This document shows positions 32,218 to 48,734 of a DNA stretch of 64,000 nt, piece after piece. This stretch comes from Yoonia ponticola (GTDB taxonomy: Bacteria > Pseudomonadota > Alphaproteobacteria > Rhodobacterales > Rhodobacteraceae): contig NZ_JACIJM010000003.1 in assembly GCF_014199395.1 (NCBI RefSeq), positions 62,001-126,000 on the forward strand, in the 5' to 3' direction. Position numbers and translations under genes: made by a program. Each line of letters starts with the position of its first letter. Positions within the stretch are counted from its first letter, which is position 1. Below the pieces are notes generated by a model. That model saw only the letters and a list, made by a program, of their open reading frames with translations. It searched no databases and was not told the origin of the DNA.

Positions 32218-32640
32218 TTATTCAGGCGCCATTTCAGGGTGGAGATACCGTTCCAGCCCTGCACGGCAATCATCTGGCCACGGGTGGGATTTATGGTCGG
32301 TTGTCGAGGTCATCACAATCAACTGCTCAATCGTCCAAATCACGTCTTCACCGACTTTGACCACGGTATAAAGGTCCAGCGATGCCCGTCCGATTTTGCG
32401 CACATGAACGTTAAAGTCCAAAATATCGCCGTAAACCGCAGGTTTTTTAAACTCGATGTTCATTTTTACACTAGGCAAACCCAGCTTGCGGTCGAACATC
32501 AGTTCTTTCCACGTCACACCAAACGACGCGAACATGGCTTCGTTTACGTCAACGAGATATGACAGATAGGCAGGATGGTACGCGATCCCGGTCAGATCGC
32601 AGTCCCCAAATCGCATTGGCTTAGAAATTGTAAAAGGCAT
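32218..32640 (-). CDS. Acyl-CoA thioesterase, 4-hydroxybenzoyl-CoA type (hotdog)
   Basis: A 140-aa single hotdog domain. The motif RFGDCDLTGIAYHPAYL matches the active-site segment of 4HBT thioesterases (Asp in DxD/DCDxxG). It should cleave aryl- or acyl-CoA, perhaps rescuing CoA from stalled intermediates of the divergent pathway. GAGGAACGCC precedes ATG 32640. It is divergent from the monooxygenase/reductase gene, with a candidate operator between them. Confidence 0.8.
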   Translation of the reverse strand: MPFTISKPMRFGDCDLTGIAYHPAYLSYLVDVNEAMFASFGVTWKELMFDRKLGLPSVKMNIEFKKPAVYGDILDFNVHVRKIGRASLDLYTVVKVGEDVIWTIEQLIVMTSTTDHKSHPWPDDCRAGLERYLHPEMAPE

Positions 32641-32835
32641 TGGCGTTCCTCTTTGTGCAACCGAAATCAGCTGAGTTGGTGTAAAGTTAAAATTGTTTAT
32701 GCTTAAAGCGAAACACCATGTCAAACTCTAACCGGTCCGACCACCCTGCCCTTATGCATCAGGAATATGTGACAAAAGGGCTTAGATCACATTTCGGCAC
32801 TGTTGAGCATTGACAGATCACAGGCTCCAATTTAA

Positions 32836-32854
32836 CTTCATATTTAAAGTAAAT
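32836..32854. promoter_or_regulatory. Candidate operator, copy A of the AT-rich island motif
   Basis: CTTCATATTTAAAGTAAAT, an imperfect palindrome between the divergent thioesterase and monooxygenase genes. Related sites lie at 37358-37376 (16 of 19 identical), 40115-40133 (minus strand, 14 of 19) and 40274-40292 (minus strand, 14 of 19). All precede genes of the same catabolic island, which also encodes two MarR regulators. Confidence 0.5.
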
Positions 32855-32898
32855 GGCAGCCCCAAGGGTGGAGGCCATCCAGCAAAAAGGTGACGGCA

Positions 32899-35181
32899 AT
32901 GAAAATAGCAATTCTTGGTGGCGGCCCCGCGGGTCTGTACTTCGCGATTTCAATGAAGCTGCGCAACAAAGACCACGACATCACCGTCTTTGAACGCAAC
33001 CGCTTTGACGACACCTTTGGGTGGGGAGTGGTTCTGTCGGACGAAACAATGTCCAACTTTGAAGTGAACGATCCGATCAGCGAAAAGATGATCCGCGATA
33101 ACTTTGCCTATTGGGATGACGTCAAGACAGTGCGTGGCGACGAGGAAATCACCTCTGGCGGGCATGGTTTCTGCGGCATTGGCCGTAAGAAATTGTTGTT
33201 AGTGCTGCAAGAGCGGGCGCGTGAACTGGACATTACGCTGTCTTTTGAAACCAACATGACCGAAGAGTCGATCGCAGAGCTGAAGGTATCGCATGACTTG
33301 GTTGTTGCGGCCGATGGCCTGAATTCCAAGGTACGGTCGGTCTATGCCGATCAATTCAAACCTGAAATCGACATGCGTGAAAATCACTTTGTCTGGCTTG
33401 GCACACATCAAAAATTCGACGACGCTTTCACCTTTATCTTTGAAGAAACCGAGCACGGTTGGGTTTGGGCGCACGCCTATCAATTCGACGACGACACAGC
33501 GACGTTCATCGTGGAATGCGGCCCAGAGACCTACAAAGCGTTTGGGTTCGACACCTTAGATCAACACGACAGCATCGCTCTGTGCGAAAAGATTTTCGCG
33601 AAACACCTCGGCGGCCACCCGTTGATGACCAACGCGAACCACATTCGCGGCTCTGCTTGGATCCAATTTCCACGAGTGACCTGCGAAAACTGGTATTTTG
33701 AAAATGTCGTGCTATTGGGCGATGCGTCTGCGACGGCGCACTTCTCAATCGGGTCTGGCTCAAAGCTGGGCATGGAAAGTGCTATTGCGCTGGCCGACGA
33801 GTTGGATTCCGACAAGCCCGTTCAAGAGGCCCTGCAGACATACCAAGACGAACGCAAATTGCAGGTGTTGCGCGTGACCTCCGCCGCACGGAACTCCACC
33901 ACGTGGTTTGAAGAAGTTGAACGCTACCTGACGCTCGACATGATGCAATTCAGCTATTCTTTGCTGACCCGCTCTCAGCGGATTAGCCACGAAAACCTGC
34001 GCCTGCGCGATCCCGAATGGATGGCCGAAGCCGAAAGCTGGTTCCAGAAAAAAGCAGGCAGCACCTCTGGTCGTAGCCCGATGTTTGCGCCGTTCACGCT
34101 GCGCGATATGACGTTAGAGAACCGCGTCGTCGTATCCCCGATGGCCCAGTACAAAGCCGAGGACGGCAACCCAACCGATTGGCATTTTGTGCATTACGCC
34201 GAACGCGCCAAAGGTGGTGCGGGTCTGGTCTTCACAGAAATGCTATGCGTCTCAAAACAAGGCCGGATCACGCCCGGTTGCCCATGTATCAGCGAAAACC
34301 AAGTACCAGCATGGTCACGCTTGACCGACTTTGTTCACGCGGAAACCCCTGCGAAAATCTGTGCCCAGATCGGCCACGCAGGCCGCAAAGGGTCCACACG
34401 TTTGGCATGGGACGGGATCGATCAGCCGTTGGAAAGCGGCAACTGGGACTTGTTATCCGCCTCTGCGCTGCCATTGATGGATGGCAACCCTGTTCCCAAA
34501 GCAATGGATCGCGCGGATATGGATTTGGTCAAAGACCAATTCATCGCATCCGTCAAAGCCGCAGACGCCGCAGGTTTCGACATGATCGAAATGCACGCGG
34601 CACACGGGTATCTTTTGGCGTCGTTCATCTCGCCCGTCACGAACAAACGCAGCGATGAATACGGCGGCACGTTAGAAAACCGGATGCGGTTCCCGTTGGA
34701 AATCTTTGCCGCGATGCGCGCCCATTGGCCAGAATCCAAGCCGATGACAGTGCGTATTTCGGCGCACGATTGGATGGGCGACGACGGTATCCACCCCGAA
34801 GAAGCCGTTGATATCGCACAGATGTTCAGTGATGCGGGCGCGGATGCGATCAACGTGTCGTCTGGTCAGACCGACAAAGCGGAACAGCCTGTCTACGGAC
34901 GCATGTTCCAAGTGCCGTTCTCGGACCGTGTGCGTAACGATGTTGGCGCCCCTACTCTGGTTGCGGGTAACATCTACGAGCCAGATCACGTCAACTCGAT
35001 CTTGATGGCTGGTCGTGCGGATCTTGTGTTGCTGGCGCGACCGCATTTAGCGGACCCTTACTGGACGCTGCATGCGGCTGTTGAACTTGGTGACACGGAT
35101 CAGACGTGGCCTGCCCCATATGAAGGCGGTCGTCGTCAGGCGAACTCTTTGGCCGAACGCGCCAAGGCGATGTCATCATGA
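32899..35181 (+). CDS. Bifunctional monooxygenase/reductase, 2-aminobenzoyl-CoA (or salicylyl-CoA) type
   Basis: A 760-aa two-enzyme fusion. Residues 1-385 form an FAD monooxygenase (GGGPAGLYFAI at 7-17, VVAADGLNS, LLGDASATAHFSIGSG). Residues ~395-755 form an Old-Yellow-Enzyme NADH:flavin oxidoreductase (VVVSPMAQYKAEDGNPTDWH, GHAGRKGS, HAAHGYLLASFISP). This layout is that of 2-aminobenzoyl-CoA monooxygenase/reductase of Azoarcus evansii, which hydroxylates and reduces the ring to a non-aromatic 2-amino-5-oxocyclohexene carbonyl-CoA. Automated annotation often calls it salicylyl-CoA 5-hydroxylase. AAGG lies 8 bases before ATG 32899. First gene of a tightly overlapping five-gene operon. Confidence 0.85.
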   Translation: MKIAILGGGPAGLYFAISMKLRNKDHDITVFERNRFDDTFGWGVVLSDETMSNFEVNDPISEKMIRDNFAYWDDVKTVRGDEEITSGGHGFCGIGRKKLLLVLQERARELDITLSFETNMTEESIAELKVSHDLVVAADGLNSKVRSVYADQFKPEIDMRENHFVWLGTHQKFDDAFTFIFEETEHGWVWAHAYQFDDDTATFIVECGPETYKAFGFDTLDQHDSIALCEKIFAKHLGGHPLMTNANHIRGSAWIQFPRVTCENWYFENVVLLGDASATAHFSIGSGSKLGMESAIALADELDSDKPVQEALQTYQDERKLQVLRVTSAARNSTTWFEEVERYLTLDMMQFSYSLLTRSQRISHENLRLRDPEWMAEAESWFQKKAGSTSGRSPMFAPFTLRDMTLENRVVVSPMAQYKAEDGNPTDWHFVHYAERAKGGAGLVFTEMLCVSKQGRITPGCPCISENQVPAWSRLTDFVHAETPAKICAQIGHAGRKGSTRLAWDGIDQPLESGNWDLLSASALPLMDGNPVPKAMDRADMDLVKDQFIASVKAADAAGFDMIEMHAAHGYLLASFISPVTNKRSDEYGGTLENRMRFPLEIFAAMRAHWPESKPMTVRISAHDWMGDDGIHPEEAVDIAQMFSDAGADAINVSSGQTDKAEQPVYGRMFQVPFSDRVRNDVGAPTLVAGNIYEPDHVNSILMAGRADLVLLARPHLADPYWTLHAAVELGDTDQTWPAPYEGGRRQANSLAERAKAMSS

Positions 35182-35921
35182 GCCTGAAAGGAAAAACAGC
35201 CTTTGTCACAGGCGGTGGATCGGGCGTCGGCGCGGTCATCGCACTAGAGCTTGCCAATGCTGGTGCTAAGGTCACGATCTGTGGTCGCCGCATCGCACCG
35301 CTAGAGGCCGTTGCAGCAAAGCATTCAAATATCTCAGCAGTCGTCGCGGACATCACGGATGAAGTGGCGATTTCAACCGCCATCGCAACCGTGTCCCCAG
35401 ATATCGTGATCGCCAATGCGGGCGCATCGGAAAGCGCGCCGTTTGTGAAAACCGAGTTGGACGCCTTTGAACGGATGATGAAAGTCAACGTAACAGGCAC
35501 CTTTTTGACTCTGCGCGAAGGGGCAAAAGCGATGAAGGGCAAGCCGTGGGGCCGTCTGATCGCGATTGCCTCAACCGCTGGCCTGAAAGGCTATCCATAC
35601 GTGGCCCCCTATGCGGCGGCGAAACATGGCGTCGTGGGCATGGTGAAATCTGTGGCCCTTGAGTTGGCACGCAAGAACATCACCGTGAACGCGATCTGCC
35701 CCGGCTTTCTGGACACGGAAATGACCGAACGGTCCATCGCCAACATCGTGGAGAAAACCGGACGTAGCGTGGAAGCGGCCCGCGCATCGCTGGAAGAAAC
35801 TAACCCGATGCACCGCCTTGTACCGCCCGAAGACGTCGCCAAAACGGTGCTTTGGCTCTGCTCTGACGGCTCTGATATGGTCACAGGCCAAAGTATTTCA
35901 GTGTCTGGAGGTGAAACATGA
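35178..35921 (+). CDS. SDR family oxidoreductase
   Basis: A 247-aa short-chain dehydrogenase with TGGGSGVG (NAD(P) site), NAG, the catalytic Ser in IASTAG and YAAAK (Tyr-Lys). It resembles 3-oxoacyl reductase/3-hydroxyacyl-CoA dehydrogenase-like members. It overlaps the upstream gene by 4 bases (ATGA). Probable role: reducing or oxidising the ring ketone or alcohol of the dearomatised CoA ester. Confidence 0.87.
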   Translation: MSLKGKTAFVTGGGSGVGAVIALELANAGAKVTICGRRIAPLEAVAAKHSNISAVVADITDEVAISTAIATVSPDIVIANAGASESAPFVKTELDAFERMMKVNVTGTFLTLREGAKAMKGKPWGRLIAIASTAGLKGYPYVAPYAAAKHGVVGMVKSVALELARKNITVNAICPGFLDTEMTERSIANIVEKTGRSVEAARASLEETNPMHRLVPPEDVAKTVLWLCSDGSDMVTGQSISVSGGET

Positions 35922-36361
35922 ACGACGTCTTCACGATCCGCCGTCAGGTCGAATTCAACCATTGCGACCCCGCAGGTATCGTCTTTTATCCGCGCTATTT
36001 CGAAATGATTTCGTCCGCGACCGAACGCTTTTTCTCGGATGCGTTGGACTTTAGCTGGGCCACTATGGGTCTCGTTGATGGTTTTGGCACGCCGATGGGC
36101 AATATCGAGACGCGGTTTTATGCACCGTCCCGCCTTGAAGACTGGCTCACGATTTCGATCACGGCCAAACGTGTTGGAACGTCGTCGCTGACGCTTCAGA
36201 TCGAGTGCCATTGCGAAGACGAACGCAGGTTCGCCTGCAAAGCAACGCTGGTCCACGCAAACATCCAAACCGGAACATCGCACCCGTGGCCTGACGCGCC
36301 ACGCGCCGCGATGACCCGCTATCTTCTATCCGTTAATTCTAATCAGGAAGACCTCTCATGA
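35918..36361 (+). CDS. 4HBT-type acyl-CoA thioesterase, second copy
   Basis: A 147-aa hotdog protein with EFNHCDPAGIVFYPRYFEM, the classical 4-hydroxybenzoyl-CoA thioesterase active-site segment (Asp in CDPAG). It overlaps the SDR gene and RidA gene by 4 bases each, so it is translated with them. It may release a free acid from the aromatic or alicyclic CoA ester. Confidence 0.85.
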   Translation: MNDVFTIRRQVEFNHCDPAGIVFYPRYFEMISSATERFFSDALDFSWATMGLVDGFGTPMGNIETRFYAPSRLEDWLTISITAKRVGTSSLTLQIECHCEDERRFACKATLVHANIQTGTSHPWPDAPRAAMTRYLLSVNSNQEDLS

Positions 36362-36771
36362 CCGCTTTAACACCACATATGTTTCTACAGCCAGACGGCT
36401 GGGCCCCTGCAAAAGGCTATTCAAATGGCGTGATGGCAGAGGGAAAGCTGATTTTCACTGGCGGACTTGTCGGTTGGAGCGCGCAGCAAACGTGGGAACA
36501 CCTCGATATGGTGGGCCAGTTCCGCCAGACCTTAGAGAATATCGTGGCTGTTCTGGAAAGCGCTGGCGCTGGCCCTGAACATCTGGTGCGTCTGACGTGG
36601 TACATCACGGACAAGCAGGAATATAACGAAAACCTGCGTGCTTTTGGTGCTGCATATCGCGATGTGATTGGTCGCCACTTTCCCGCGATGGCCGTTGTGC
36701 AGGTCATCGCCTTGATGGAAGACGAAGCCAAAATCGAAATCGAAGCCACTGCGGTCATTCCGCATGACTGA
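36358..36771 (+). CDS. RidA family protein (enamine/imine deaminase)
   Basis: A 137-aa RidA/YjgF family protein (YSNGVMAEGKLIFTGGLVGW ... VRLTWYITDKQEYNENL). The typical Arg of RidA seems present in HLVRLTWYIT, compatible with hydrolysis of 2-aminoacrylate-like imines. In this operon it follows an enzyme expected to make a cyclic enamine (2-amino-5-oxocyclohexenecarbonyl-CoA), so it may hydrolyse that amino group to a ketone and ammonia (inference). It overlaps both neighbours. Confidence 0.85.
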   Translation: MTALTPHMFLQPDGWAPAKGYSNGVMAEGKLIFTGGLVGWSAQQTWEHLDMVGQFRQTLENIVAVLESAGAGPEHLVRLTWYITDKQEYNENLRAFGAAYRDVIGRHFPAMAVVQVIALMEDEAKIEIEATAVIPHD

Positions 36772-37141
36772 CCCAGTTCAGCGGCCAGACAGCGCGCCGG
36801 TTCTCATCACGATGAGTTCATTTGAATCCGTGACGCCGCGTGGCGCTGTCACGGGCGCGTGGATTATGGGCCAGCTTGATCGTGCGGCGGGCCTTGCTGG
36901 CATGAAAATATCGGGCGGCGATGCGTTGATCTTGTCGATCAAAGAGCTGACGTTTCTTGCAGTTCTGCCAGCGGGCGTAGAGTTCGCAATCCATAGCGAG
37001 TTGACGCGCAAAGGGAATTCGTCGTTTACGGTTGCCCTGTCGGGATGGGCTGACGTTAAAGGCGAGTCCATCGGCATTTTCCGCGCCGATGTTGTACTCG
37101 TTGCTGTCGATGACAATGGTCGTCCGCGCAAGCTGGCTTAG
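36764..37141 (+). CDS. YciA/PaaI-like hotdog thioesterase, third copy
   Basis: A 125-aa hotdog protein. TPRGAVTGAWIMGQLDRAAGLAG resembles the YciA-type acyl-CoA thioesterase motif (usually GGWLMSQMD). It has only one hotdog domain and overlaps ridA by 8 bases. The last gene of the operon, it ends in front of a hairpin at 37246. Confidence 0.7.
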   Translation: MTDPVQRPDSAPVLITMSSFESVTPRGAVTGAWIMGQLDRAAGLAGMKISGGDALILSIKELTFLAVLPAGVEFAIHSELTRKGNSSFTVALSGWADVKGESIGIFRADVVLVAVDDNGRPRKLA

Positions 37142-37245
37142 GTCACGGGCGCTCTCGCCACAGGCGCACAACCGCTTGAAGGTTCAACCTCGTCACCGGC
37201 GGATAACCTGTGCAGTTCGCAGCGTTGAGACTACAGCGATATTGA

Positions 37246-37404: not shown

Positions 37405-37869
37405 ATGAACACTGACTCAAAAACCGAAATCACCGATGATAATCTTGCACGCCAACGGCTACGCCTCTGGTTGCAAATGCTCAAAGCGACGCGCCACGTC
37501 GAAGGTGTGCTGCGCGATGAATTGCGGTCTGGCTATGATACAACATTGCCGCGTTTTGATGTTCTTGCCACACTACACGCAACGCCTGAAGGCATGAAGA
37601 TGAGCGAACTTTCCACGCATCTTGTTGTCTCGAACGGTAACGTCACTGGCGTCGTGGATCGTTTGGTGAGCGAAGGTTTGGCCGAACGCACAAATATGGA
37701 AAGCGACCGCAGAGCGTTCTTGGTACGGATCACTGAAAAGGGCCGTGTTTTGATGGACGAAATGACAGCTAACCATCTGGAATGGATCGATAAACTGTTT
37801 GCGGATGTGACCGAAACCGACGCGGCGCGTGGTATTTCGATTATGCTAGATATCCGCCGGAAATCTTAA
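37405..37869 (+). CDS. MarR family transcriptional regulator, island copy 1
   Basis: A 154-aa winged-helix regulator (MKMSELSTHLVVSNGNVTGVVDRLVSEGL; D-R-R wing in MESDRRAFLV). MarR proteins usually repress aromatic-catabolism genes and release on binding an aromatic or aryl-CoA ligand. It lies between two oppositely oriented parts of the island. ATG 37405 is used; the frame is open upstream to 37381. Confidence 0.87.
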   Translation: MNTDSKTEITDDNLARQRLRLWLQMLKATRHVEGVLRDELRSGYDTTLPRFDVLATLHATPEGMKMSELSTHLVVSNGNVTGVVDRLVSEGLAERTNMESDRRAFLVRITEKGRVLMDEMTANHLEWIDKLFADVTETDAARGISIMLDIRRKS

Positions 37870-37927: not shown

Positions 37928-38737
37928 TTAAAGCAGCCCTGTTTCCTTCGCGACGCGACGGTATCCTGCCCCCGCCGTAAAGCCGCCGTCGATCACAAAA
38001 TCTTCGCCTGTGATAAACTTGGACCCGTCGGCTGCGAGGAACAGCACGAGTTGCGCCACTTCGTCTGCTTCGCCCGCGCGTTGCGCCGGCGTCATGCTGA
38101 TCATCGGACCCAGATGCGGGGACGCGCGGTTCAGATCGGTCACGATCAAGCCTGGGCAGATCGCGTTCACGCGAATACCATCGTCCGCAAATTCCATCGC
38201 CGCTGTGCGGGTCAAGCCACGGATCGCCCATTTCGACGAGGTATAAGCAGGATCGTAATGGCCGGAAAACGCGCTGTTTGAGGAAATGTTAACGATACTT
38301 CCCCCACCGGTTTCCGCCATCAATGGTGCCGATAATTTGGTCCCGATAAACGTTCCGGTTGCGTTCACATCCATCACCATGCGCCATTCCGCGACGGTCA
38401 TATCGCGAATGATTTTACGGTTAATAATGCCCGCGTTGTTCACCAACACGTCCAAACGGCCAGTCCATGCGCGGACGGTGGCAAGTGCTGCGACCCATTC
38501 GTCTTCGGATGTGACGTCCAACTTGAAGAACTGCACGGATTTTCCGTCGCTCTGCAGGCGTTCGGCTAGTGCTTTGCCTTCGTCTTCCAGCACATCGCAG
38601 ATCAGAACTGATGCGCCAGCCGTCGCCAAAAGCTCGACCTCAACCGCACCTTGTCCACGCGCACCGCCCGTAACAATCGCGGTTTTACCTGCCAGATCGG
38701 TCAATGCTGCTTTGGTTTTTTCAAAATCGACGCTCAT
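37928..38737 (-). CDS. SDR family oxidoreductase, second copy
   Basis: A 269-aa short-chain dehydrogenase (TGGARGQG, NNAGIINRK, catalytic Ser in VNISSNS, YTSSK). It overlaps the FAH gene by 4 bases, forming a two-gene unit after the cupin. Substrate is likely a cyclic hydroxy/keto acid of the island pathway. Confidence 0.88.
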   Translation of the reverse strand: MSVDFEKTKAALTDLAGKTAIVTGGARGQGAVEVELLATAGASVLICDVLEDEGKALAERLQSDGKSVQFFKLDVTSEDEWVAALATVRAWTGRLDVLVNNAGIINRKIIRDMTVAEWRMVMDVNATGTFIGTKLSAPLMAETGGGSIVNISSNSAFSGHYDPAYTSSKWAIRGLTRTAAMEFADDGIRVNAICPGLIVTDLNRASPHLGPMISMTPAQRAGEADEVAQLVLFLAADGSKFITGEDFVIDGGFTAGAGYRRVAKETGLL

Positions 38738-39576
38738 GCTTGCACCATCAATTGACGCTGTTCGCCCAAACCACTGGCCCCAAGCGTGACAACTTGGCCT
38801 TCTTTCAAGAAGGTCGGCGGTTTCATCCCAAGACCAACACCCGGAGGTGTGCCCGTCGCGATGATGTCACCTGCTTCAAGTGTCATGAATTGCGAGATGT
38901 AGTGGACCAGATGTGCAACGCCAAAGATCATCGTTTTGGTGTTGCCCGTCTGGCGACGCTCGCCGTCTACATCAAGCCACAGGTCGATGTTTTGCACGTC
39001 CGCGATTTCGTCTTTCGACACCATCCACGGACCAACCGGACCAAACGTGTCGTGGCTTTTGCCTTTGACCCACTGGCCACCACGTTCGGATTGGAAGCGA
39101 CGTTCAGAGACGTCGTTAATCAGCGTGTAGCCCGCCACATAGTCAAGCGCGTCGTCTTCGCTGACGTATTTCGCACGTGAACCAATCACGATTCCCAGCT
39201 CGATCTCCCAATCGGTCCGGTCTGATCCGCGCGGGATTTCCACGTCGTCATTTGGGCCGCAAAGCGCTGTTGTTGCTTTGGAAAACAACACAGGTTCGGC
39301 GGGTGGTTCTTTACCAGTTTCGCGGGCGTGGTCGGCGTAATTCAAGCCCACGCACAGGAATTTGCCGGGCCGCGCCACAGCGGACCCGATGCGCGGTGTG
39401 CCGTCTACTTTTGGCAGGCTCTCGACATCAAGTGCCGCAAGTTTAGCCATCATATCAGGCGCAAGCGTCGTCCTATCAATGTCCGCGACGACCCCGGACA
39501 GGTCACGCATCTGGCCGGACCCATCAAGAATGGCAGGACGTTCAGAGCCCGCAGGCCCGTAGCGAAGAAGCTTCAT
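38734..39576 (-). CDS. Fumarylacetoacetate hydrolase-fold protein
   Basis: A 280-aa FAH-family protein with KFLCVGLNYADHARETG and the metal site region EIELGIVIG. Family members hydrolyse C-C bonds of beta-diketones or hydrate/decarboxylate oxo-acids. In this cluster a C-C cleavage of a ring ketone is possible (inference). ATG 39576 is used (TTG at 39579). It is followed 4 bases overlapped by the SDR gene. Confidence 0.88.
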   Translation of the reverse strand: MKLLRYGPAGSERPAILDGSGQMRDLSGVVADIDRTTLAPDMMAKLAALDVESLPKVDGTPRIGSAVARPGKFLCVGLNYADHARETGKEPPAEPVLFSKATTALCGPNDDVEIPRGSDRTDWEIELGIVIGSRAKYVSEDDALDYVAGYTLINDVSERRFQSERGGQWVKGKSHDTFGPVGPWMVSKDEIADVQNIDLWLDVDGERRQTGNTKTMIFGVAHLVHYISQFMTLEAGDIIATGTPPGVGLGMKPPTFLKEGQVVTLGASGLGEQRQLMVQA

Positions 39577-39629: not shown

Positions 39630-40055
39630 TCAGGGGCGACGGTAACCTTCGAGGGCTTCGTCCGGCACATCAGGCAAGTTGGTGACAAAGTTGTCAGGCG
39701 TGCGGCAGGTCAGCCAAACCAATTCGTCCGTGATGCTCATGTTCACTTCGACATGCGGCATGAAGGGCGGCACAAAAACAAAATCGCCTTCGAACAGGTC
39801 GATAAATTCTTTGTAGTCATCGCCAAAGTAGATGCGACCATGGCCTTTGAGAACGTAGCCACCGGTTTCGGCTTCGTCATGGTGGTGTGGCGGCGAACGG
39901 TGGCCCGGCTCATTGCTCACACGACCGAACCACAGTTTTGTCGCTGGGGTGTGTTGCGGGCTAACACCCGATTTACGCACGCATTCGCCTGACTGCAAAG
40001 TGCTGTCATCAAGCTCTTGAGAGCGCGTTACTACCGGTACAACTTTATCGGACAT
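39630..40055 (-). CDS. Cupin domain protein
   Basis: A 141-aa single cupin. The metal ligands appear in HHHDEAETGGYVLKGHGRIYF and PPFMPHVEVN. Function open: possibly a small dioxygenase, an isomerase or a sensor. AGGGAG lies 8 bases before ATG 40055. First gene of the minus-strand unit cupin-FAH-SDR, whose leader carries operator copies B and C. Confidence 0.8.
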   Translation of the reverse strand: MSDKVVPVVTRSQELDDSTLQSGECVRKSGVSPQHTPATKLWFGRVSNEPGHRSPPHHHDEAETGGYVLKGHGRIYFGDDYKEFIDLFEGDFVFVPPFMPHVEVNMSITDELVWLTCRTPDNFVTNLPDVPDEALEGYRRP

Positions 40056-40114
40056 CATATATCTCCCTGAATTTCGACGCAGCACCTCTGCCGCTATACG
40101 GCAACATAGCCAGA

Positions 40115-40292: not shown

Positions 40293-40361
40293 AATATTTA
40301 TATATGTATTTGCATATAACTAAGACTCAGTCACTAAAAAATGAGATCAGGGAGCCTCAAT

Positions 40362-41156
40362 ATGACCAGCCAAACAACACTCGCAAACCTTGCCACCAGC
40401 CTCTTGGATGGCTCGATCAAAGTGGTCGATTGCAGCGGCCCGCTTGGCCCTGACACACCATTGCTAAAGCTGCCGCCAGAGATCGCAGACGACACGCCAA
40501 AAATCGAAATTCACGAGATTTCCAGATACGGTGATCGTGGTCCATTCTGGGCGTGGAACTGGCTCAAGTTGGGCGAACACTCTGGCACGCACTACGATGC
40601 ACCACACCATTGGGTCACAGGTAAAGACTACCCAGACGGCTCTGTGGACACCATCGCACCACAGAACTTTGTAGCGCCTGCCAACGTCATTGATTGCTCG
40701 AAAGAAGCAGCCGCTGATCCCGATTTCCTACTGACAGTAGACCACGTCAAAGCATGGGAAGCAGAACACGGCGAGATCAAAGAAGGTGAATGGGTCCTGA
40801 TGCGGACGGACTGGGATCAATACAACGACGACGAAGTCAAATACCTGAACGCAGATGAAACAGGTCCACACACACCTGGCCCGAACGCCGAAGTCATCAC
40901 CTATTTGATGGAAGAGAAAAAAGCGCTGGGTTGGGGTACACAATGTATCGGTACAGACGCGGGTGCGGCTGGTGGATTTGAAATCCCGTTCCCTGCCCAC
41001 AACCTTTTGCACAAGCACAACCGCTACGGCCTCGCGTCCCTGACGAACCTGAGCGAACTGCCTGCTAAAGGCGCGATCCTGATCACTGCACCGCTTAAGA
41101 TCGTCAAAGGCACCGGATCACCGATCCGCGCTCTTGCACTGATCCCCGCGTCCTAA
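40362..41156 (+). CDS. Isatin hydrolase-like metal-dependent cyclase family enzyme
   Basis: A 264-aa member of the cyclase family (PF04199) with the metal motif HSGTHYDAPHHW (H73, H77, D79). Kynurenine formamidase (KynB) shares the fold but is about 50 residues shorter. The length, the W-rich AWNWLKLGEHSGTH and the IGTDAG segment look like isatin hydrolase, which opens isatin to isatinate using Mn2+. GGGAG precedes ATG 40362. It is followed 18 bases later by a flavoprotein gene and starts the plus-strand arm of the island. Whether the substrate is isatin or a related lactam is unproven. Confidence 0.72.
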   Translation: MTSQTTLANLATSLLDGSIKVVDCSGPLGPDTPLLKLPPEIADDTPKIEIHEISRYGDRGPFWAWNWLKLGEHSGTHYDAPHHWVTGKDYPDGSVDTIAPQNFVAPANVIDCSKEAAADPDFLLTVDHVKAWEAEHGEIKEGEWVLMRTDWDQYNDDEVKYLNADETGPHTPGPNAEVITYLMEEKKALGWGTQCIGTDAGAAGGFEIPFPAHNLLHKHNRYGLASLTNLSELPAKGAILITAPLKIVKGTGSPIRALALIPAS

Positions 41157-41174: not shown

Positions 41175-42740
41175 ATGACCGCACCCATCGATATCGCCAT
41201 TATCGGCAGTGGCATTAACGCGCTGACGGCTGGGGCTATGCTTGCTAAATCCGGCAAGAAAGTCGCGCTGTTCGAACGCGAAGCTGTCGCGGGTGGTTGT
41301 ATGCGGTCAGAAACACTGGCCGAGGGGGTCACTTACGATCCCCTCGCCACCACCTTTGTTCTATGGGTGACGGGTGCAGCGCATGGCGCATTGGCAGACG
41401 ACCTTGCACGGCACGGCGTCGAATTCTGTGCGACTGACACGCCCACGGGTGTGCTGCTGCCGGACGGGCGTGCGCTGACATACACAACGGATCGCGCAGC
41501 TAATGTTGCGGCGTTTGATGCGGTTGAAGCCGGAGACGGCGCGCAGCTTGCCCGTGATCTTGATAATTTCGGAGCCGATGCAGAGTTACTTTTCGGCCTG
41601 ATGGGCGGCGATCCTTGGTCGAAATCAACCACAAAACTGCTGGCGAAAGAAACGTGGAAACGCAAACCACGCGGTCTGGCCACAACGATGGGCGGCGCAT
41701 TGCAATCGATGCGCGGCTGGCTTGAGACGTCGTTTGAAAATGACCTGACCCGTGCGCTTTGGGCGCCGTGGTGTCTACATGCGGGCCTCGGACCAGAGGC
41801 CGCGTTTTCGGGTCAAATGGGTCAAGTCATTGGATTTGCTCTAGAAGCCGCAAGCGCCCCGATCGTCAAAGGGGGCGCTGCCAATATGGTCCGCGCTTTG
41901 TCCGCGATTATCACGGAAAACGGTGGTGAAATTCACACGTCGTCCGAAGTGGCAGAAATCACGATCATCAACGGCGTGGCCAAAGGTCTGAAACTGTCCA
42001 ACGGCAAAGAAATCGCAGCGGGCGAAGTGCTGGCCTCTGTCACGCCAAACCAACTGTACGAGACGCTCGCGCCCACACCAGCCAAGCAAGAGGACTTGCG
42101 CAAATACCGCTACGGCAAAGGTAATTTCCAACTGCACTACCATCTTGATGGTCCCGTAAACTGGAAGACCGCTGGCCTAGACGCGGTGCAACTGCTGCAC
42201 ATCACACCGGGTTTGGATGGCGTATCAAAGGCTGGCAACGAGGCCGAACGCGGGTTCTTGCCGGATGTGCCAACGATCTGCGTCGGCCAACCAAGTGCTG
42301 CCGATCCAAGCCGCGCACCCGAGGGCCAAAGCGTACTTTGGTTGCAGATGCCCGAAGCCCCGCGTCACGTCAAAGGCGACGCACGTGGCACATTGGACAT
42401 CCCCGAAGACGGCCAATGGACTGAAGCCCTGCGCGAAGCATATGCAGACCGCGTCGAGGCCATCTTGGCCGATCATATCGACGGCTTTGCAGATCAAATC
42501 CTGACGCGCCGGGCCATATCGCCTGCCGACCTGCAGGGCTACAATATGAACCTTGTCGGCGGCGATCCTTATGGTGGCGCATGCACGATTGAGCAATTTT
42601 TCCTCTGGCGCCCGTTTGCAGACACGGTCCGCCACGCAACTGGCATCAAAAACCTCTACCACATCGGCGCATCCACACATCCGGGTCCGGGATTGTCTGG
42701 TGGCTCGGGCTATCTGACCGCAAAGGAATTGGGCGCATGA
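41175..42740 (+). CDS. Phytoene-desaturase-like FAD oxidoreductase, copy 1
   Basis: A 521-aa protein with N-terminal FAD site IGSGINALTAGAMLAKSGKK. It belongs to the carotenoid desaturase / PYROXD2-like branch and is paralogous to the protein at 47190-48734. No carotenoid genes are nearby, so it probably oxidises another hydrophobic or cyclic substrate of the island. Its last 4 bases overlap the MarR gene. Confidence 0.82.
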   Translation: MTAPIDIAIIGSGINALTAGAMLAKSGKKVALFEREAVAGGCMRSETLAEGVTYDPLATTFVLWVTGAAHGALADDLARHGVEFCATDTPTGVLLPDGRALTYTTDRAANVAAFDAVEAGDGAQLARDLDNFGADAELLFGLMGGDPWSKSTTKLLAKETWKRKPRGLATTMGGALQSMRGWLETSFENDLTRALWAPWCLHAGLGPEAAFSGQMGQVIGFALEAASAPIVKGGAANMVRALSAIITENGGEIHTSSEVAEITIINGVAKGLKLSNGKEIAAGEVLASVTPNQLYETLAPTPAKQEDLRKYRYGKGNFQLHYHLDGPVNWKTAGLDAVQLLHITPGLDGVSKAGNEAERGFLPDVPTICVGQPSAADPSRAPEGQSVLWLQMPEAPRHVKGDARGTLDIPEDGQWTEALREAYADRVEAILADHIDGFADQILTRRAISPADLQGYNMNLVGGDPYGGACTIEQFFLWRPFADTVRHATGIKNLYHIGASTHPGPGLSGGSGYLTAKELGA

Positions 42741-43183
42741 GCGTTGGTCCCGAAGAGTTAGAAGCCTTTACCCCCTACCTCATGAACCGGATCATGGCGC
42801 GGTATAACAAAGGCGTTGAATCCGAACTCAAAACCGCTGGCGTATCGGTCGCACAGATGCGTGCGCTTGTGGTCTTGGCGGATAATAGCCCCTGCTCGAT
42901 TTCCGAACTTTCGGTGCTGACAGTGATCAAACAATCCACCCTGTCGCGCACATTGGACACGATGGAAAACGCAGGGCTGATCAAACGCGAAGCCCAAGAC
43001 GACGACAGCCGCATCCGCATGATCAGTCTCAGCGACGCTGGCCGCGCGGCCTACGCCACAGCATGGCCCGCAATGGTGGGCATGCGCGAAACCATGCTCG
43101 CCAGCCTGTCGGATAAGGAACGCGAAACGCTTAACCAACTGTTGTTACGTATCTTTTACGACATTCGGCACCACGACTTCTAA
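42737..43183 (+). CDS. MarR family transcriptional regulator, island copy 2
   Basis: A 148-aa winged-helix regulator (CSISELSVLTVIKQSTLSRTL; wing DDDSRIRMISL). Cotranscribed with the upstream flavoprotein by a 4-base overlap, unlike copy 1, which has its own promoter. Together they likely sense island metabolites. Confidence 0.87.
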   Translation: MSVGPEELEAFTPYLMNRIMARYNKGVESELKTAGVSVAQMRALVVLADNSPCSISELSVLTVIKQSTLSRTLDTMENAGLIKREAQDDDSRIRMISLSDAGRAAYATAWPAMVGMRETMLASLSDKERETLNQLLLRIFYDIRHHDF

Positions 43184-43478: not shown

Positions 43479-45623
43479 ATGGCCGAAAGATCATTTGCGA
43501 AAGAAGTTCAGAAACTCAAACAGGGTCAAGGTGATACCTTTTCCGGCGAGGGCATCCTTGCGATCACCAAGGCGCTGTTGGAAAATGGCGTCGGGTATGT
43601 TGGCGGCTACCAAGGCTCGCCGATTTCACACCTGATGGACGTATTGGCCGACGCCGAAGAAATCTTAAGCGAGCTTGGCGTCCACTTTGAAGCGTCCGCA
43701 AGCGAAGCAACCGCGACAGCGATGCTGGCCGCCTCCGTCCACTACCCAATTCGCGGCGCTGTCACGTATAAATCCGTGGTCGGCACAAACGTGGCCTCTG
43801 ACGCTTTGTCGAACCTTGCGTCTGGCGGTGTCACTGGCGGTGCATTGATCATCGTCGGCGAAGACTACGGCGAAGGCTCGTCGATCATGCAAGAGCGCAC
43901 CTACGCCTTTGCGATGAAGTCTCAGGTCTGGATGCTAGACCCGCGCCCAAACCTGCCCGCGATTGTCAAAGCGGTTGGTGATGGGTTCGAGCTGTCCGAA
44001 ATATCGAACACACCAGTGATGCTGCAAGTCGGCATCCGGTCTTGCCACGTCCACGGTAACTTTGAGGCCGCTGACAACAAACGCCCACCGATGACCGTGT
44101 CGGATGCGTTGGAAAAGCCAGCCCGCCAACTTGACCGCATCGTGTTGCCGCCAGCCACATACCTGCACGAAGAAGAAAAGCTGACCAAACGCCTGCCTGC
44201 TGCCAAGAAATTCATCATTGAGAAAGAGATCAACGAACGCTTTGGCAAGCCCGACGCCAAAGTTGGCCTGATCCTACAAGGCGGCACCTATAACACCGTC
44301 ATTCGTGCGCTGAACCGTCTGGGACTTGCTGATCTTTACGGCGACACCGACATGGACATGCTGGTGCTGAACTGCATTTATCCGCTCGTCGACAGTCAAA
44401 TCATGGACTTCTGCGAAGGCAAAGACGCGATCCTTGTCATTGAGGAAGGTCACCCGAACTACGTCGAACAGCAGATTGCCCACATGCTATACAAAGGCGG
44501 AAAATCCGTCACGCTGGAAGGCAAAGGCAAGTTGCCGATGGGCGGCGAATATACCGGACAAGTGATGGTCGACGGGATCGGCGCATTCCTGACTGAACAC
44601 GCCCCGTCCCTGTTACCTGTCGCAAAAGTCGTCACCAACGAAGAACCAGTGGCGATCCCTGATCTGTCGAAAACATTGCCTGCACGGCCACCTGGTTTCT
44701 GCACAGGCTGCCCTGAACGCCCGATCTTTGCGGCCACAAAGTTGGTTGAAGAAGAATTGGGCGAACACCACATCTCGTCCGACATCGGCTGCCACTTGTT
44801 TTCGATCATGCCTCCATTTGATCTTGGGGCGACCACGATGGGCTACGGGCTTGGGCCTGCGTCTGCTGCGGCGTTCCATAACGAGAACCCCAACGGACGA
44901 CGCTCGATTTCCTTCGTGGGCGATGGTGGTTTTTGGCACAACGGTCTGACAAGTTCTGTCGGCAACGCTGTGTTCAACAAATCCGACAACGTTATTGTTA
45001 TCGTTGATAACTTTTATTCGGCAGCAACGGGCGGCCAAGACATTCTGTCGTCCCGCGCCACCAACAAAACCAAACAAACCCAAAGCTCTATCGTGGATGC
45101 CTGTAAAGGTATGGGCGTCAAATGGATCCGCCAGATTGATCACACCTATGACGTGACCAAGGTCCGCGATACGCTGAAAGAAGCCCTGACAACCGAAGAA
45201 CGCGGTCCCAAAGTCATCGTGGCCTCGTCCGAGTGCATGTTGAATAAACAACGCCGCGTGAAACCGGAATTGGCCAAAGCCGCCAAAGACGGCAAACGGG
45301 TTGTGCGCCCACGGTTCGGCGTCGACGAAGACATCTGCACGGGCGACCACGCCTGCATGCGCCTGTCCGGTTGCCCATCATTGTCGGTGAAAGACACCGG
45401 CGACCCGTTGCGCGATGATCCGGTCGCGGCAATCGACCAGACATGTGTTGGCTGCGGAAACTGCGGCGAAGTGGCCGATGCGGCCGTTCTTTGTCCGTCA
45501 TTCTTCCAAGCCGAAATCGTGTCGAACCCAAGCACGGGTGAGCGTCGTCGCGCCAAGCGTAATCAAAAAATCATCTCTTGGCTGCAAGGCCGACGAGACG
45601 CCAAGCGCGTCGCCTTTGCATAA
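43479..45623 (+). CDS. iorA: Indolepyruvate ferredoxin oxidoreductase-type alpha subunit (TPP enzyme)
   Basis: A 714-aa IorA-type subunit of 2-oxoacid:ferredoxin oxidoreductase. The N-terminal pyrimidine-binding domain (GEGILAITKALLENGVGYVGG) is followed by the TPP domain (GDGGFWHNGLTSSVGNAVFN) and C-terminal 4Fe-4S ferredoxin motifs (CTGDHACMRLSGCP and CVGCGNCGEVADAAVLCP). The enzyme oxidatively decarboxylates aryl 2-oxoacids to acyl-CoA with reduced ferredoxin. In this island isatinate, an arylglyoxylate, is a plausible substrate giving anthraniloyl-CoA. GGAG precedes ATG 43479. The beta subunit follows. Confidence 0.9.
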   Translation: MAERSFAKEVQKLKQGQGDTFSGEGILAITKALLENGVGYVGGYQGSPISHLMDVLADAEEILSELGVHFEASASEATATAMLAASVHYPIRGAVTYKSVVGTNVASDALSNLASGGVTGGALIIVGEDYGEGSSIMQERTYAFAMKSQVWMLDPRPNLPAIVKAVGDGFELSEISNTPVMLQVGIRSCHVHGNFEAADNKRPPMTVSDALEKPARQLDRIVLPPATYLHEEEKLTKRLPAAKKFIIEKEINERFGKPDAKVGLILQGGTYNTVIRALNRLGLADLYGDTDMDMLVLNCIYPLVDSQIMDFCEGKDAILVIEEGHPNYVEQQIAHMLYKGGKSVTLEGKGKLPMGGEYTGQVMVDGIGAFLTEHAPSLLPVAKVVTNEEPVAIPDLSKTLPARPPGFCTGCPERPIFAATKLVEEELGEHHISSDIGCHLFSIMPPFDLGATTMGYGLGPASAAAFHNENPNGRRSISFVGDGGFWHNGLTSSVGNAVFNKSDNVIVIVDNFYSAATGGQDILSSRATNKTKQTQSSIVDACKGMGVKWIRQIDHTYDVTKVRDTLKEALTTEERGPKVIVASSECMLNKQRRVKPELAKAAKDGKRVVRPRFGVDEDICTGDHACMRLSGCPSLSVKDTGDPLRDDPVAAIDQTCVGCGNCGEVADAAVLCPSFFQAEIVSNPSTGERRRAKRNQKIISWLQGRRDAKRVAFA

Positions 45624-45634
45624 GGAATAGCCAC

Positions 45635-47185
45635 ATGAACGTTCAGAACAAACCTATCATCGCACGTCGATCAGCTGGACCAGACGGCGAGAAAATCATC
45701 ACGCTCGCAGCTCTGGCTGTGGGCGGCCAAGGCGGCGGTGTGCTGACCAATTGGATCGTGGCCGTGGCCGAAGCCAACGGTTTCCGTGCGCAATCGACGT
45801 CGGTTGCGGGCGTGGCCCAACGGACTGGTGCGACGATCTACTACGTTGAGATGTGCCGCGATACGGGCCGCGCACCGATCTTCTCGTTGTCGCCCTCCAT
45901 CGGTGACGTCGATATTCTGATGGCATCGGAATTGATGGAAGGCGGACGCGCGATCATGCGCGGGTTCGTGACACCGGGCCGAACGACCTTGATCGCATCG
46001 ACGCACCGCATCGCGGCCATTTCAGAAAAAACCACACCCGGTGACGGGCGCATCGACGGGGCCGAAGTGATCGCCGCTATGGGAATCGCCGCTGATAAAG
46101 TGGTGGCGTTTGACATGGAAACCGTCGCCAAAGAAGCGGGTTCGGTGATTTCATCATCCTTGCTTGGGGCGCTTGCGGGATCAGGTTCCCTGCCCTTTTC
46201 GCGCGAAAGTTTTGAAGACATTATCCGCAAGTCAGGTCGCGGCGTAGAGGCCAGCTTGCGGGCCTTTGGCGATGCCTATGAGATCGCAAAAGGCACCAAA
46301 GCAGCGCCGCTTCCCAAGGAAACGACCACGGTGGAATTGCCGACGCTGCACATTCCCGAAAAATTGAAATCCAAATGGTCCGCACTCGAAAGCCGTGTTC
46401 AGGCGTTGCCCGAGGCGGTGCAAGAGATGACCGCTTTGGGTGTCCGCAAAGTCGTGGACTACCAAGACGTTGACTACGGGGCCGACTACCTGACGATGGT
46501 CGAAAAGGTCGCAGCATTGGACACAGCCCCTTATGATCTAAGCATCGCCGCTGCCAAATATTGCTCGCGTGCGTTGTGCTATGACGACATCCTGCGCGTG
46601 GCCGATATCAAGACACGGGCGTCACGGCTTGAGCGGGTCAAAAACGAAGTCGTCGTCAAAGACGATCAGGTTTTGATGGTCACTGAATACTTCCACCCAC
46701 GCTTTGAAGAGTTCGCAACGACCTTGCCGCGTCCGTTGGGCAAATGGCTGCAAAACCGCAAAAGCCTTGAGACGCTTTATTCCAAGTATTTTGACAAGGG
46801 TCGCCGTGTACGGACGGATAGTCTTGGCGGGTTCCTGACGCTTTGGGCTGTGTCGTCGCTGCGTCCTTATCGTCGCGGGCTTTTGCGGCACGCGAGCGAA
46901 ATGGCCCATGTCGATGCGTGGTTTAAAACCGTGCTCGACGTGGCACAAAATGATCCCGAACTGGCTGCGGAAGTTCTGACAAATTACCGCCTGATCAAAG
47001 GGTATTCCGACACGCACGTCCGCGGCATGTCGAAATTCGCACGGGTCATGGGCGCATTGGACTTGCTGCAAGGCCGCAAAGATGCCGCCGATTGGATGCG
47101 CCGTTTGCGGGTCGCCGCACTTGATGACGTGAAAGGTGACGCTCTTGATGGCGCACTGGCCACCGTCAAAAGCTTTGCAGGGTAA
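45635..47185 (+). CDS. iorB: Indolepyruvate ferredoxin oxidoreductase-type beta subunit with DUF6537-like extension
   Basis: A 516-aa IorB. Residues ~25-210 are the gamma-type domain (LAVGGQGGGVLTNWIVAVAE). The C-terminal ~300 residues form an added domain seen in proteobacterial IorB. AAGGAATAG lies before ATG 45635. Works with IorA next door. The long split form differs from the single-chain 1,150-aa enzyme that other roseobacters use on phenylpyruvate. Confidence 0.88.
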   Translation: MNVQNKPIIARRSAGPDGEKIITLAALAVGGQGGGVLTNWIVAVAEANGFRAQSTSVAGVAQRTGATIYYVEMCRDTGRAPIFSLSPSIGDVDILMASELMEGGRAIMRGFVTPGRTTLIASTHRIAAISEKTTPGDGRIDGAEVIAAMGIAADKVVAFDMETVAKEAGSVISSSLLGALAGSGSLPFSRESFEDIIRKSGRGVEASLRAFGDAYEIAKGTKAAPLPKETTTVELPTLHIPEKLKSKWSALESRVQALPEAVQEMTALGVRKVVDYQDVDYGADYLTMVEKVAALDTAPYDLSIAAAKYCSRALCYDDILRVADIKTRASRLERVKNEVVVKDDQVLMVTEYFHPRFEEFATTLPRPLGKWLQNRKSLETLYSKYFDKGRRVRTDSLGGFLTLWAVSSLRPYRRGLLRHASEMAHVDAWFKTVLDVAQNDPELAAEVLTNYRLIKGYSDTHVRGMSKFARVMGALDLLQGRKDAADWMRRLRVAALDDVKGDALDGALATVKSFAG

Positions 47186-47189
47186 CACC

Positions 47190-48734
47190 ATGACCACACC
47201 TATCATTATCATCGGATCAGGCATTAACGGACTTGTCGCGGCGGCCGATCTTGCGGCACGCGGCAAATCCGTGCGCGTGTTGGAGCAAGGACCAACACCC
47301 GGCGGAGCCGTCCGCACCGAAGACTTAACCTTGGACGGTTTCCGCCACGACGTCGCGGCGATGAACCTGTCGATGTTTGCTGGATCAGGGTTCATGGCCC
47401 GCCATGGCGCAGAGATGGCCAAACACGGGTTAGAGTTTGTTCCCATTGACCGCCCCTTCGCCCAAGCGCTAGAGCCGGGCGATCATGTCGGTGTGACGAT
47501 GGACGTCGATGAAACGCTTAGCAGCTTTCACAGCGACGCGGACAAAGCGACTTGGCGTACCTTGATGGCGGCCTTTCCCGAACGCGCAGGCGTCGTTGGC
47601 GGATTGCTATCCACACCAATGCGCCGCTTGCCGCTGGCTAAATTTTTGTGGAAAACATGGCGGGAGCAAGGGACTGCCAAATGCCTTGAGATCGGGCAGT
47701 TCCTATTGAGCTCACCGCGCAATTGGCTTGATGAAACTTTTGAAGACCCGCGCCTGCGCACGGCCCTCTCAACATGGGGTATGCACCTCGATTTTGCACC
47801 AGACATCGCGGGCGGCGCGATCTTCCCCTACCTCGAAGCAATGGCCGGTCAGGCGATGGGCATGGTTATCGGCAAAGGTGGCGCTGATACTGTGACCCGC
47901 GCGCTGGTCGCTATGATTGAAGCACATGGCGGAACGGTCGAATGCAACGCCGATGTCACGCGCATCATTCACAAAGACGGCAACGTCACTGGTGTCGAAG
48001 TCAACGAGAAAATCATCGACGCGTCCTTGGTTTTGGCAGGACTTGCACCGAAACACCTAACCCGTTTGACAGGCCCCACAGCGCAGCCGCGTTTTGACAA
48101 GGGCATGGAAAACTTCAAACACGCACCGGGCACGATGATGATCCATCTTGCTCTCGACAAACAGGTGCCTTGGATCGCAACCGCGCTCGAAAAATTCGCC
48201 TACGTGCATATCAGCTCAACCATCGACACGGCAGCAAAGACGTATGCGCAGGCTGTTGCAGGGCTTTTGCCCGAAACGCCGTTGTTGGTTGTCGGCCAGC
48301 CAACCGTGTTTGACCCTTCTCGTGCGCCAGATGGTCAGCACACGCTTTGGGTGCAGGTCCGCGTGGTTCCTGCCGACATCAAAGGCGATGCAAAAGGCGA
48401 AATCAGAGCCCTTGATTGGGGCGATGCCAAAGTGGCCATGGCGGAACGCGCCCTCAATATCATTGAGCAGCAAGCCCCCGGTTTCAAGGACACCATTCTC
48501 GCCAAACACGTCGTGTCGCCGCTGGACCTAGAGGCGGGAAATCCGAATCTTGTGGGTGGCGACCAGATTTGTGGCTCGCATCATCTAACCCAGAACTTCT
48601 TGTTCCGGCCATTGCGCGGGTTCGCGGATGGGCACACGCCGATAAAAGGGCTGCACATGATTGGTGCCGCTTGTTGGCCAGGTGCTGGAACGGGTGCAGC
48701 ATCCGGATTCTTTGCTGCACAAAACATCAAATGA
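47190..48734 (+). CDS. Phytoene-desaturase-like FAD oxidoreductase, copy 2
   Basis: A 514-aa paralogue of the protein at 41175 (FAD site IGSGINGLVAAADLAARGK; conserved C-terminal PGAGTGAASGFFAA). The start ATG 47190 lies 4 bases after the iorB stop, so it belongs to the same operon. Two such proteins flanking iorAB suggest they handle consecutive or alternative oxidations of one substrate class. Confidence 0.82.
   Translation: MTTPIIIIGSGINGLVAAADLAARGKSVRVLEQGPTPGGAVRTEDLTLDGFRHDVAAMNLSMFAGSGFMARHGAEMAKHGLEFVPIDRPFAQALEPGDHVGVTMDVDETLSSFHSDADKATWRTLMAAFPERAGVVGGLLSTPMRRLPLAKFLWKTWREQGTAKCLEIGQFLLSSPRNWLDETFEDPRLRTALSTWGMHLDFAPDIAGGAIFPYLEAMAGQAMGMVIGKGGADTVTRALVAMIEAHGGTVECNADVTRIIHKDGNVTGVEVNEKIIDASLVLAGLAPKHLTRLTGPTAQPRFDKGMENFKHAPGTMMIHLALDKQVPWIATALEKFAYVHISSTIDTAAKTYAQAVAGLLPETPLLVVGQPTVFDPSRAPDGQHTLWVQVRVVPADIKGDAKGEIRALDWGDAKVAMAERALNIIEQQAPGFKDTILAKHVVSPLDLEAGNPNLVGGDQICGSHHLTQNFLFRPLRGFADGHTPIKGLHMIGAACWPGAGTGAASGFFAAQNIK

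Follow-up and report, generated by a model that had tools for sequence, protein, structure and literature searches.

A 64,000-nt stretch of the Yoonia ponticola genome (GCF_014199395.1, NZ_JACIJM010000003.1, positions 62,001-126,000, forward strand), referred to below as the window, carries between its positions 32218 and 48734 a gene island that is probably an isatin-catabolic module. In it, isatin, an oxidised compound akin to indole and tryptophan, would be hydrolysed to isatinate, and isatinate would be converted to anthraniloyl-CoA by IorAB, a 2-oxoacid oxidoreductase, without a ligase. This reading builds on sequence comparison, namely on the orthology of isatin hydrolase and of the 2-aminobenzoyl-CoA monooxygenase/reductase (ABM/R), on gene linkage, on co-occurrence across genomes and on the absence of a recognisable ligase. 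The gene calls (open reading frame listing and profile searches; Table 1) contain as open frames all the gene classes that a preliminary description of the island had named: an isatin-hydrolase-like enzyme, IorAB, ABM/R, RidA, two short-chain dehydrogenases (SDRs), an FAH-fold hydrolase, three thioesterases and two MarR regulators. The same interval also holds a cupin and two CrtI/amine-oxidase-like flavoproteins, FAD1 and FAD2, which flank the MarR2-IorAB block.

In the proposed route, isatin hydrolase would open isatin to isatinate (2-aminophenylglyoxylate), and IorAB would catalyse the oxidative decarboxylation of isatinate onto CoA, yielding anthraniloyl-CoA, CO2 and a reduced acceptor. 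ABM/R would hydroxylate and reduce anthraniloyl-CoA to 2-amino-5-oxocyclohex-1-ene-1-carbonyl-CoA; free anthranilate and a ligase would both be unnecessary. The substrate and product of IorAB, the substrate of ABM/R and all subsequent steps are what we infer. The lower pathway after ABM/R is a guess, in which ring opening would be completed by RidA (deamination), the SDRs (reduction), the FAH-fold hydrolase (C-C hydrolysis), the cupin and the thioesterases. Isatin would probably be supplied through exchangeable front ends, either FAD1/FAD2 with an Opp-type transporter or a kynureninase-like (KYNU-like) enzyme with an amino-acid transporter.

Isatin hydrolase, ABM/R and IorAB

The best solved relative of the window's isatin hydrolase is isatin hydrolase B (PDB 4j0n/4m8d; 429 bits, residues 8-270); with the Labrenzia aggregata enzyme (4j0n) it shares a full-length match and the same active-site motifs. 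In a profile search of the genome its gene gave the single match to PF04199. Passages of PMC6117287 name the Mn ligands HxxxHxD, the aromatics WxW/FxW and GLAS/GLQC as isatin hydrolase signatures, and the window protein carries WAWNW, HSGTHYD and GLAS. None of the 82 aligned rows departs from these signature residues, and neither does any of the six fusions with the KYNU-like protein; the rows comprise the window, 80 related loci and L001, a duplicate of the window gene. H89, not a signature residue, is variable, with histidine in 76 of the 82 rows. The predicted assignment as an isatin hydrolase orthologue is supported.

ABM/R is described, in passages of PMC4539516, as converting 2-aminobenzoyl-CoA to 2-amino-5-oxocyclohex-1-ene-1-carbonyl-CoA, its substrate normally coming from a ligase. 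The window protein, the genome's sole match at E 1e-150, passes the cut-off of NF006101 and comprises two domains, a monooxygenase and an old-yellow-enzyme reductase. NF006101 is named salicylyl-CoA 5-hydroxylase/oxidoreductase; linkage to RidA and isatin hydrolase points indirectly to anthraniloyl-CoA rather than salicylyl-CoA as the putative substrate.

The IorAB superfamily acts on 2-oxoacids, of which isatinate is one. The reaction proposed for IorAB, in which an arylglyoxylate gives an aroyl-CoA, would be of the type catalysed by phenylglyoxylate:acceptor oxidoreductase; the two enzymes are likened by reaction and not by sequence. Family names suggest indolepyruvate instead, and IorB passes the indolepyruvate oxidoreductase beta family model NF006179, so that IorAB might act upstream, on indolepyruvate or another arylpyruvate to give an arylacetyl-CoA, and share only its regulation with isatin hydrolase. 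We consider this highly improbable, as IorA lies far under the cut-off of the indolepyruvate:ferredoxin oxidoreductase model TIGR03336, and its pairing with isatin hydrolase and ABM/R, together with the Caballeronia cluster described below, put IorAB between the two.

Linkage and co-occurrence

A single scan of genome contigs returned 193 relatives, and the 80 best loci were retained. Genes were counted per locus at an identity of at least 35% within the view, many loci ending at contig breaks. IorA was found in 72 of these 80, IorB in 65, MarR2 in 71, FAD1 in 62, FAD2 in 59, OppA in 56, ABM/R in 24 and the KYNU-like gene in 16. Of the 59 loci spanning at least 20.7 kb, 56 have IorA no further than 5 kb from isatin hydrolase, so that the grouping is not due to chance. 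Forty-six of these 59 contain the FAD1/FAD2 pair, eight of them along with a KYNU-like gene; six of the 13 loci without the pair have a KYNU-like gene and seven have neither. This variation makes the front ends appear exchangeable. In G207 (judged by length the same contig as L011) only the core is in view, without flavoproteins or Opp genes, and there is no KYNU-like match. The same gene order, with a 99% identical isatin hydrolase, recurs in an uncultured Rhodobacteraceae genome (L002), and loci of Celeribacter, Pacificibacter and Alloyangia retain much of it. A scan of ten additional neighbours across six loci for other front ends yielded nothing telling. One gene family recurs in L024, L025 (15577-16956), L029, L049 and L051, all without the flavoprotein pair; the L025 member, the only one scanned, is a class I/II aminotransferase.

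For the analysis of co-occurrence, an even sample of 341 genomes was taken from the order, with thresholds of E 1e-150 for ABM/R and the anthranilate-cluster ligase, 1e-60 for isatin hydrolase (matches reaching down to 45% identity), 1e-180 for IorA and 1e-80 for the KYNU-like protein. Genomes with a match numbered 138 for ABM/R, 134 for the ligase, 56 for IorA, 50 for isatin hydrolase and 28 for the KYNU-like protein. ABM/R is present in every one of the 50 isatin-hydrolase genomes and in 88 of the 291 others (Fisher p 4e-23), IorA in 49 of the 50 and in 7 of the 291 (p 2e-50). Related genomes not being independent, a count was also made at genus level (124 genera), in which all 30 isatin-hydrolase genera fall inside the 70 ABM/R genera (p 1e-9). 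Fifty carriers selected among the 80 loci form a second set, which overlaps the 341-genome sample and has ABM/R throughout (49-99% identity). This pattern would fit IorAB as an isatinate oxidoreductase giving anthraniloyl-CoA.

Absence of a recognisable anthranilate-CoA ligase

That the island contains no aryl-CoA ligase, as stated in the preliminary description, is borne out, and no ligase that could supply ABM/R from elsewhere was recognisable: the genome (rated 99.99% complete) gave no anthranilate-CoA ligase match at E 1e-150. None of its ten AMP-binding proteins lies inside the window, and they are at most 34% identical to the cluster ligases of R. pomeroyi, P. denitrificans and Alloyangia, which are mutually 71-79% identical. 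Among three that were typed, one passes a malonyl-CoA synthase model, another an acyl-CoA synthetase model and L088 none; L088 reaches 251 bits in the benzoate-CoA ligase family (cut-off 375) and 364 bits, below cut-off, with the acetate-CoA ligase model. Judged from these scores, it might conceivably act as an activating enzyme.

Isatinate could accordingly yield free anthranilate, activated for ABM/R by an unrecognised ligase or a CoA transferase, with IorAB using another 2-oxoacid. The number of AMP-binding proteins and the benzoate-CoA ligase score of L088 leave room for this, as does the scope of the ligase absence, which covers AMP-binding proteins, CoA transferases not having been searched for; in addition, the product detected for the iad auxin-degradation pathway is anthranilic acid in the passages cited below. 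We nevertheless regard it as unlikely, given the distance of the best own candidate from the mutually similar anthranilate-cluster ligases, the better fit of L088 to the acetate-CoA ligase model and the close tracking of isatin hydrolase by IorA.

Across the 341 genomes, the ligase accompanies ABM/R in 134 of 138 and has no match in the 203 genomes without ABM/R. Isatin hydrolase and IorA are both present in each of the four that have ABM/R but no ligase, namely G000 (the genome studied here), G134, G207 and G353. Tryptophan dioxygenase was tested in 52 genomes (the 28 KYNU-like and 24 other isatin-hydrolase genomes); 48 gave a match, several beside the ligase (e.g. G236, G086, G324), and it was not found in G000, G134, G207 and G189. 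In G353, the fourth ligase-less genome, only a divergent relative is present. Because the ligase-less genomes have no tryptophan dioxygenase or only this divergent relative, the ligase seems to act in the kynurenine-to-anthranilate branch and to accompany it; isatin hydrolase, IorAB and ABM/R appear to stay together.

A kynureninase-like enzyme as a possible front end

The system probably runs on beyond 48734, with the Opp-type ABC transporter (48862-54049), the KYNU-like gene and amino-acid-type ABC genes up to 58529. The KYNU-like protein is a fold-type I, Aminotran_5 enzyme that has the lysine expected for pyridoxal phosphate (PLP) binding. It was not among the matches to the kynureninase model TIGR01814 at E 1e-10, and its relative in L112 scores 51.7 bits with this model (cut-off 246.4). 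Isatin hydrolase is carried by 26 of the 28 KYNU-like genomes in the 341-genome sample, and in six genomes of three genera the two are fused as one protein (Table 1). At three of the six fusion loci, L101-L103, an Opp-type transporter and a gene of the M20 dipeptidase family are found alongside. Two unfused copies stand near divergent tryptophan-2,3-dioxygenase relatives (L112:8211-9647, L105:3455-4201; TIGR03036 about 124 versus 390.7 bits), which may be oxindole-forming haem enzymes, a kind for which there is precedent.

Kynurenine formamidase and kynureninase act in successive steps, and the cyclase and the KYNU-like enzyme could be such a pair acting on N-formylkynurenine, the fusion mirroring the step order. 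Bacterial KynB and isatin hydrolase superpose and share a metal-binding motif in passages of PMC6117287, and a tryptophan-dioxygenase match was obtained in 45 of the 46 isatin-hydrolase genomes that bear the ligase. The same source, however, gives KynB kynurenine formamidases an I(L/I)E motif in the place of GLAS, and the cyclases found here, fused or not, have the isatin-hydrolase motifs (GLAS, WxW or FxW). The KYNU-like proteins moreover fail the kynureninase model, G157 and G174 each have a cut-off-passing kynureninase alongside the KYNU-like protein, and the genome of the window has no tryptophan dioxygenase match. A formamidase/kynureninase pair thus seems quite unlikely.

We tentatively suggest, as a possibility that we hold to be somewhat doubtful, that the wider system salvages oxidised tryptophan: the KYNU-like enzyme would cleave 3-hydroxy-oxindolylalanine (dioxindolylalanine) in a retro-aldol reaction to isatin and alanine, followed by the fused or neighbouring isatin hydrolase, formation of anthraniloyl-CoA by IorAB and dearomatisation by ABM/R. 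In its favour stand the fusions, the co-occurrence of the KYNU-like gene with isatin hydrolase, the transporter and M20 dipeptidase-family genes at L101-L103 and the dioxygenase relatives near the unfused copies; it is a better lead than an entry from indole or indoleacetate. The likeliest, if unproven, entry in this genome is the import of an oxidised tryptophan compound.

Comparison with known clusters

The iad loci of Variovorax, Bradyrhizobium and Achromobacter have in common with the island, as far as passages of PMC9613470 and PMC12633357 describe them, IorAB-type IadA/IadB, an IadI-type hydrolase, MarR control and isatin and isatinic acid as intermediates. There, iorB/iadB and iotA/iadA are exclusive markers and the pathway ends at anthranilic acid (PMC9613470), IadI is annotated as kynurenine formamidase (PMC12633357), and the passages of both papers assign IorAB no step. 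To call the island undescribed, as was done initially, was therefore an overstatement. In contrast to iad loci, the genome gave no Ring_hydroxyl_A (IadD-type) match and the island has no iad-type ligase or thiolase. Since no Ring_hydroxyl_A (PF00848) match was found in the genome at E 0.001, and hence no Rieske-type IadDE, we dropped the reading of the island as an indoleacetate locus. The link to indole or indoleacetate breakdown in the preliminary description is not supported in this organism, given this result, the missing tryptophan dioxygenase match and the lack of an indole oxygenase in the island, one not having been searched for genome-wide; what stands of its pathway is the isatin hydrolase orthology and the ligase absence, its lower part remaining guesswork. 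Mutants in 'iadA/iadB' of Pseudomonas LY1 were not used as genetic proof for IorAB, the genes not being identified as IorAB in the text available; likewise, the available passages of PMC10374108 do not mention iadA/iadB. In the accessible open-licence literature we found no description of isatinate conversion to anthraniloyl-CoA or of the KYNU-like route; subscription papers may hold one.

With the aerobic, abm-type 2-aminobenzoate clusters (Azoarcus evansii, in passages of PMC4539516; R. pomeroyi, L093; P. denitrificans, L097) the island shares ABM/R, an SDR, MarR and RidA, as well as the cupin with R. pomeroyi and a thioesterase with P. denitrificans. It lacks their ligase, enoyl-CoA hydratase and acyl-CoA dehydrogenase genes, and goes beyond them in the extra thioesterases, the FAH-fold hydrolase, the second SDR and the linkage to isatin hydrolase and IorAB.

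A Caballeronia plasmid (L108:2406-14792, 12.4 kb) has in a row IorA, IorB, a thioesterase, ABM/R, a cupin, FAH, a carbon-nitrogen hydrolase, an Asp/Glu racemase, MarR and isatin hydrolase; a ligase is not among its listed genes, the plasmid gene tables being incomplete. The cupin is gentisate-dioxygenase-like (330 versus 442 bits), and the gene content suggests a lower pathway of the 5-hydroxyanthranilate type. Isatin hydrolase, MarR and IorAB also occur on two Sulfitobacter plasmids, one of which has the flavoprotein pair and Opp-type genes as well. On Sagittula and Shinella plasmids, the cyclase gene is preceded by ligase, thiolase and SDR genes like those described for iad, and IorAB lies at a distance of 9-10 kb. 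The window's island is found on an Alloyangia plasmid together with a styrene/indole monooxygenase relative and an anthranilate-type ligase; this relative, with a flavin reductase (L092:6101-7823), lies upstream of the island as an alternative front end.

Observations weighing against the proposed route

Several observations speak against a ligase-free route through IorAB. Linkage is looser in the 341-genome sample than among the loci: of the 50 carriers, 36 have IorA no more than 5 kb from isatin hydrolase, 41 no more than 10 kb and 46 no more than 25 kb away (contig breaks included). G067, G128, G168 and G388 have no IorA within 25 kb, G388 none at the cut-off, and seven genomes of the sample have IorA without isatin hydrolase. 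Among the 59 longer loci, L032, L056 and L069 have no IorA in view. The ligase-free state is a minority, as 40 of the 50 carriers in the second set keep the ligase (at least 59% identity), and the finding that all four ligase-less ABM/R genomes have isatin hydrolase is weak by itself (P 0.016, or 0.046 if three genera are counted). In the stretch shown of an Azospirillum plasmid, the cyclase gene is present and IorAB is not. A Cupriavidus plasmid stretch lists ABM/R, cupin and FAH and no ligase, IorAB or isatin hydrolase, so that relatives of ABM/R can occur separately. The Variovorax iadC-K2 segment yields anthranilic acid in passages of PMC12633357, whose main text, as far as available, does not name IadA/IadB, suggesting that anthranilate can form without IorAB. 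Finally, because IorA misses the cut-off of the curated indolepyruvate model, its substrate stays putative.

Gene map and remaining genes

The island and its downstream neighbours are listed in Table 1. For FAD1, a predicted structure (predicted local distance difference test, pLDDT, 87.7) had carotenoid desaturase 4rep as its top PDB match (E 4.7e-27); it was set aside as a substrate clue, as it gives a carotenoid-desaturase/amine-oxidase fold and no hint of the substrate. Families missing from the structure matches were given no weight. The rhamnonate hydrolase model (NF053535) raised a sugar-acid route for FAH and SDR2, which was discarded because this pair with the cupin neighbours isatin hydrolase in 17 relatives; cupin and FAH are found together, in 17 of the 80 loci each, and the R. 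pomeroyi anthranilate-type cluster also holds a cupin gene. The amino-acid-type ABC ATPase is surrounded by a GntR/FCD regulator and TRAP transporter genes (DctQ, DctM; window 57074-60743).

Table 1. Genes of the island and its downstream neighbours (window coordinates), with fusion proteins of related loci.
Feature	Position	Strand	Basis and remarks
TE1, YbgC-like hotdog thioesterase	32218..32640	-	TIGR02799 45 bits, below cut-off; start set by eye at internal ATG
ABM/R, 2-aminobenzoyl-CoA monooxygenase/reductase type flavoenzyme	32890..35181	+	NF006101 1211 bits, residues 4-761, cut-off 1078
SDR1, short-chain dehydrogenase	35178..35921	+	profile match; four-base overlap with ABM/R frame
TE2, hotdog thioesterase	35918..36361	+	4HBT_2
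RidA-family enamine/imine deaminase	36358..36771	+	TIGR00004 53 bits, below cut-off
TE3, YciA-like/4HBT hotdog protein	36764..37141	+	profile match
MarR1 regulator	37405..37869	+	profile match; frame opens at TTG 37381, ATG at 37405
SDR2	37928..38737	-	profile match
FAH-fold hydrolase	38734..39576	-	PF01557 240 bits; NF053535 414 bits, cut-off 500
Small single-domain cupin	39630..40058	-	PF07883; wider range 39630-40085
Isatin hydrolase, IHB type	40341..41156	+	isatin hydrolase B structures, motifs, PF04199
FAD1, CrtI/amine-oxidase-fold flavoprotein	41175..42740	+	profile match; structure model
MarR2 regulator	42737..43183	+	profile match
IorA-like 2-oxoacid oxidoreductase alpha subunit	43479..45623	+	TIGR03336 293 bits, cut-off 650.9; co-occurrence
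IorB-like beta subunit with DUF6537	45632..47185	+	NF006179 656 bits, cut-off 348; POR + DUF6537; start set at ATG
FAD2, second CrtI-like flavoprotein	47190..48734	+	start set at ATG (wider range 47136-48734); 32% identity to FAD1
OppA-type solute-binding protein	48862..50400	+	all models below cut-off
OppB-type permease	50451..51473	+	profile match
OppC-type permease	51466..52332	+	profile match
ABC ATPase, OppD position	52329..53225	+	profile match
ABC ATPase, OppF position	53222..54049	+	profile match
Kynureninase-like PLP enzyme (KYNU-like)	54136..55272	-	Aminotran_5 + KYNU_C; closest PDB match kynureninase 1qz9
Amino-acid-type ABC permease	55315..55995	-	profile match
SBP_bac_3 amino-acid-type binding protein	56086..56985	-	profile match
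Amino-acid-type ABC ATPase	57681..58529	+	GlnQ-like, below cut-off
KYNU/isatin hydrolase fusions	L098:6991-8964, L099:7932-10001, L100:7792-9822, L101:7543-9534, L102:7712-9721, L103:7761-9803		

Significance

As a hypothesis, the conversion of isatin to anthraniloyl-CoA is well supported. The co-occurrence would give the IorAB of the iad auxin-degradation loci a precise reaction, and isatin breakdown would be joined to aerobic, CoA-bound ring dearomatisation, saving the ATP of the ligase. A kynureninase-like front end, if genuine, would reveal a way in which bacteria recycle oxidised tryptophan; the oxidised-tryptophan route, if true, would add to the kynurenine and indole routes another path by which tryptophan reaches central metabolism, without free anthranilate.

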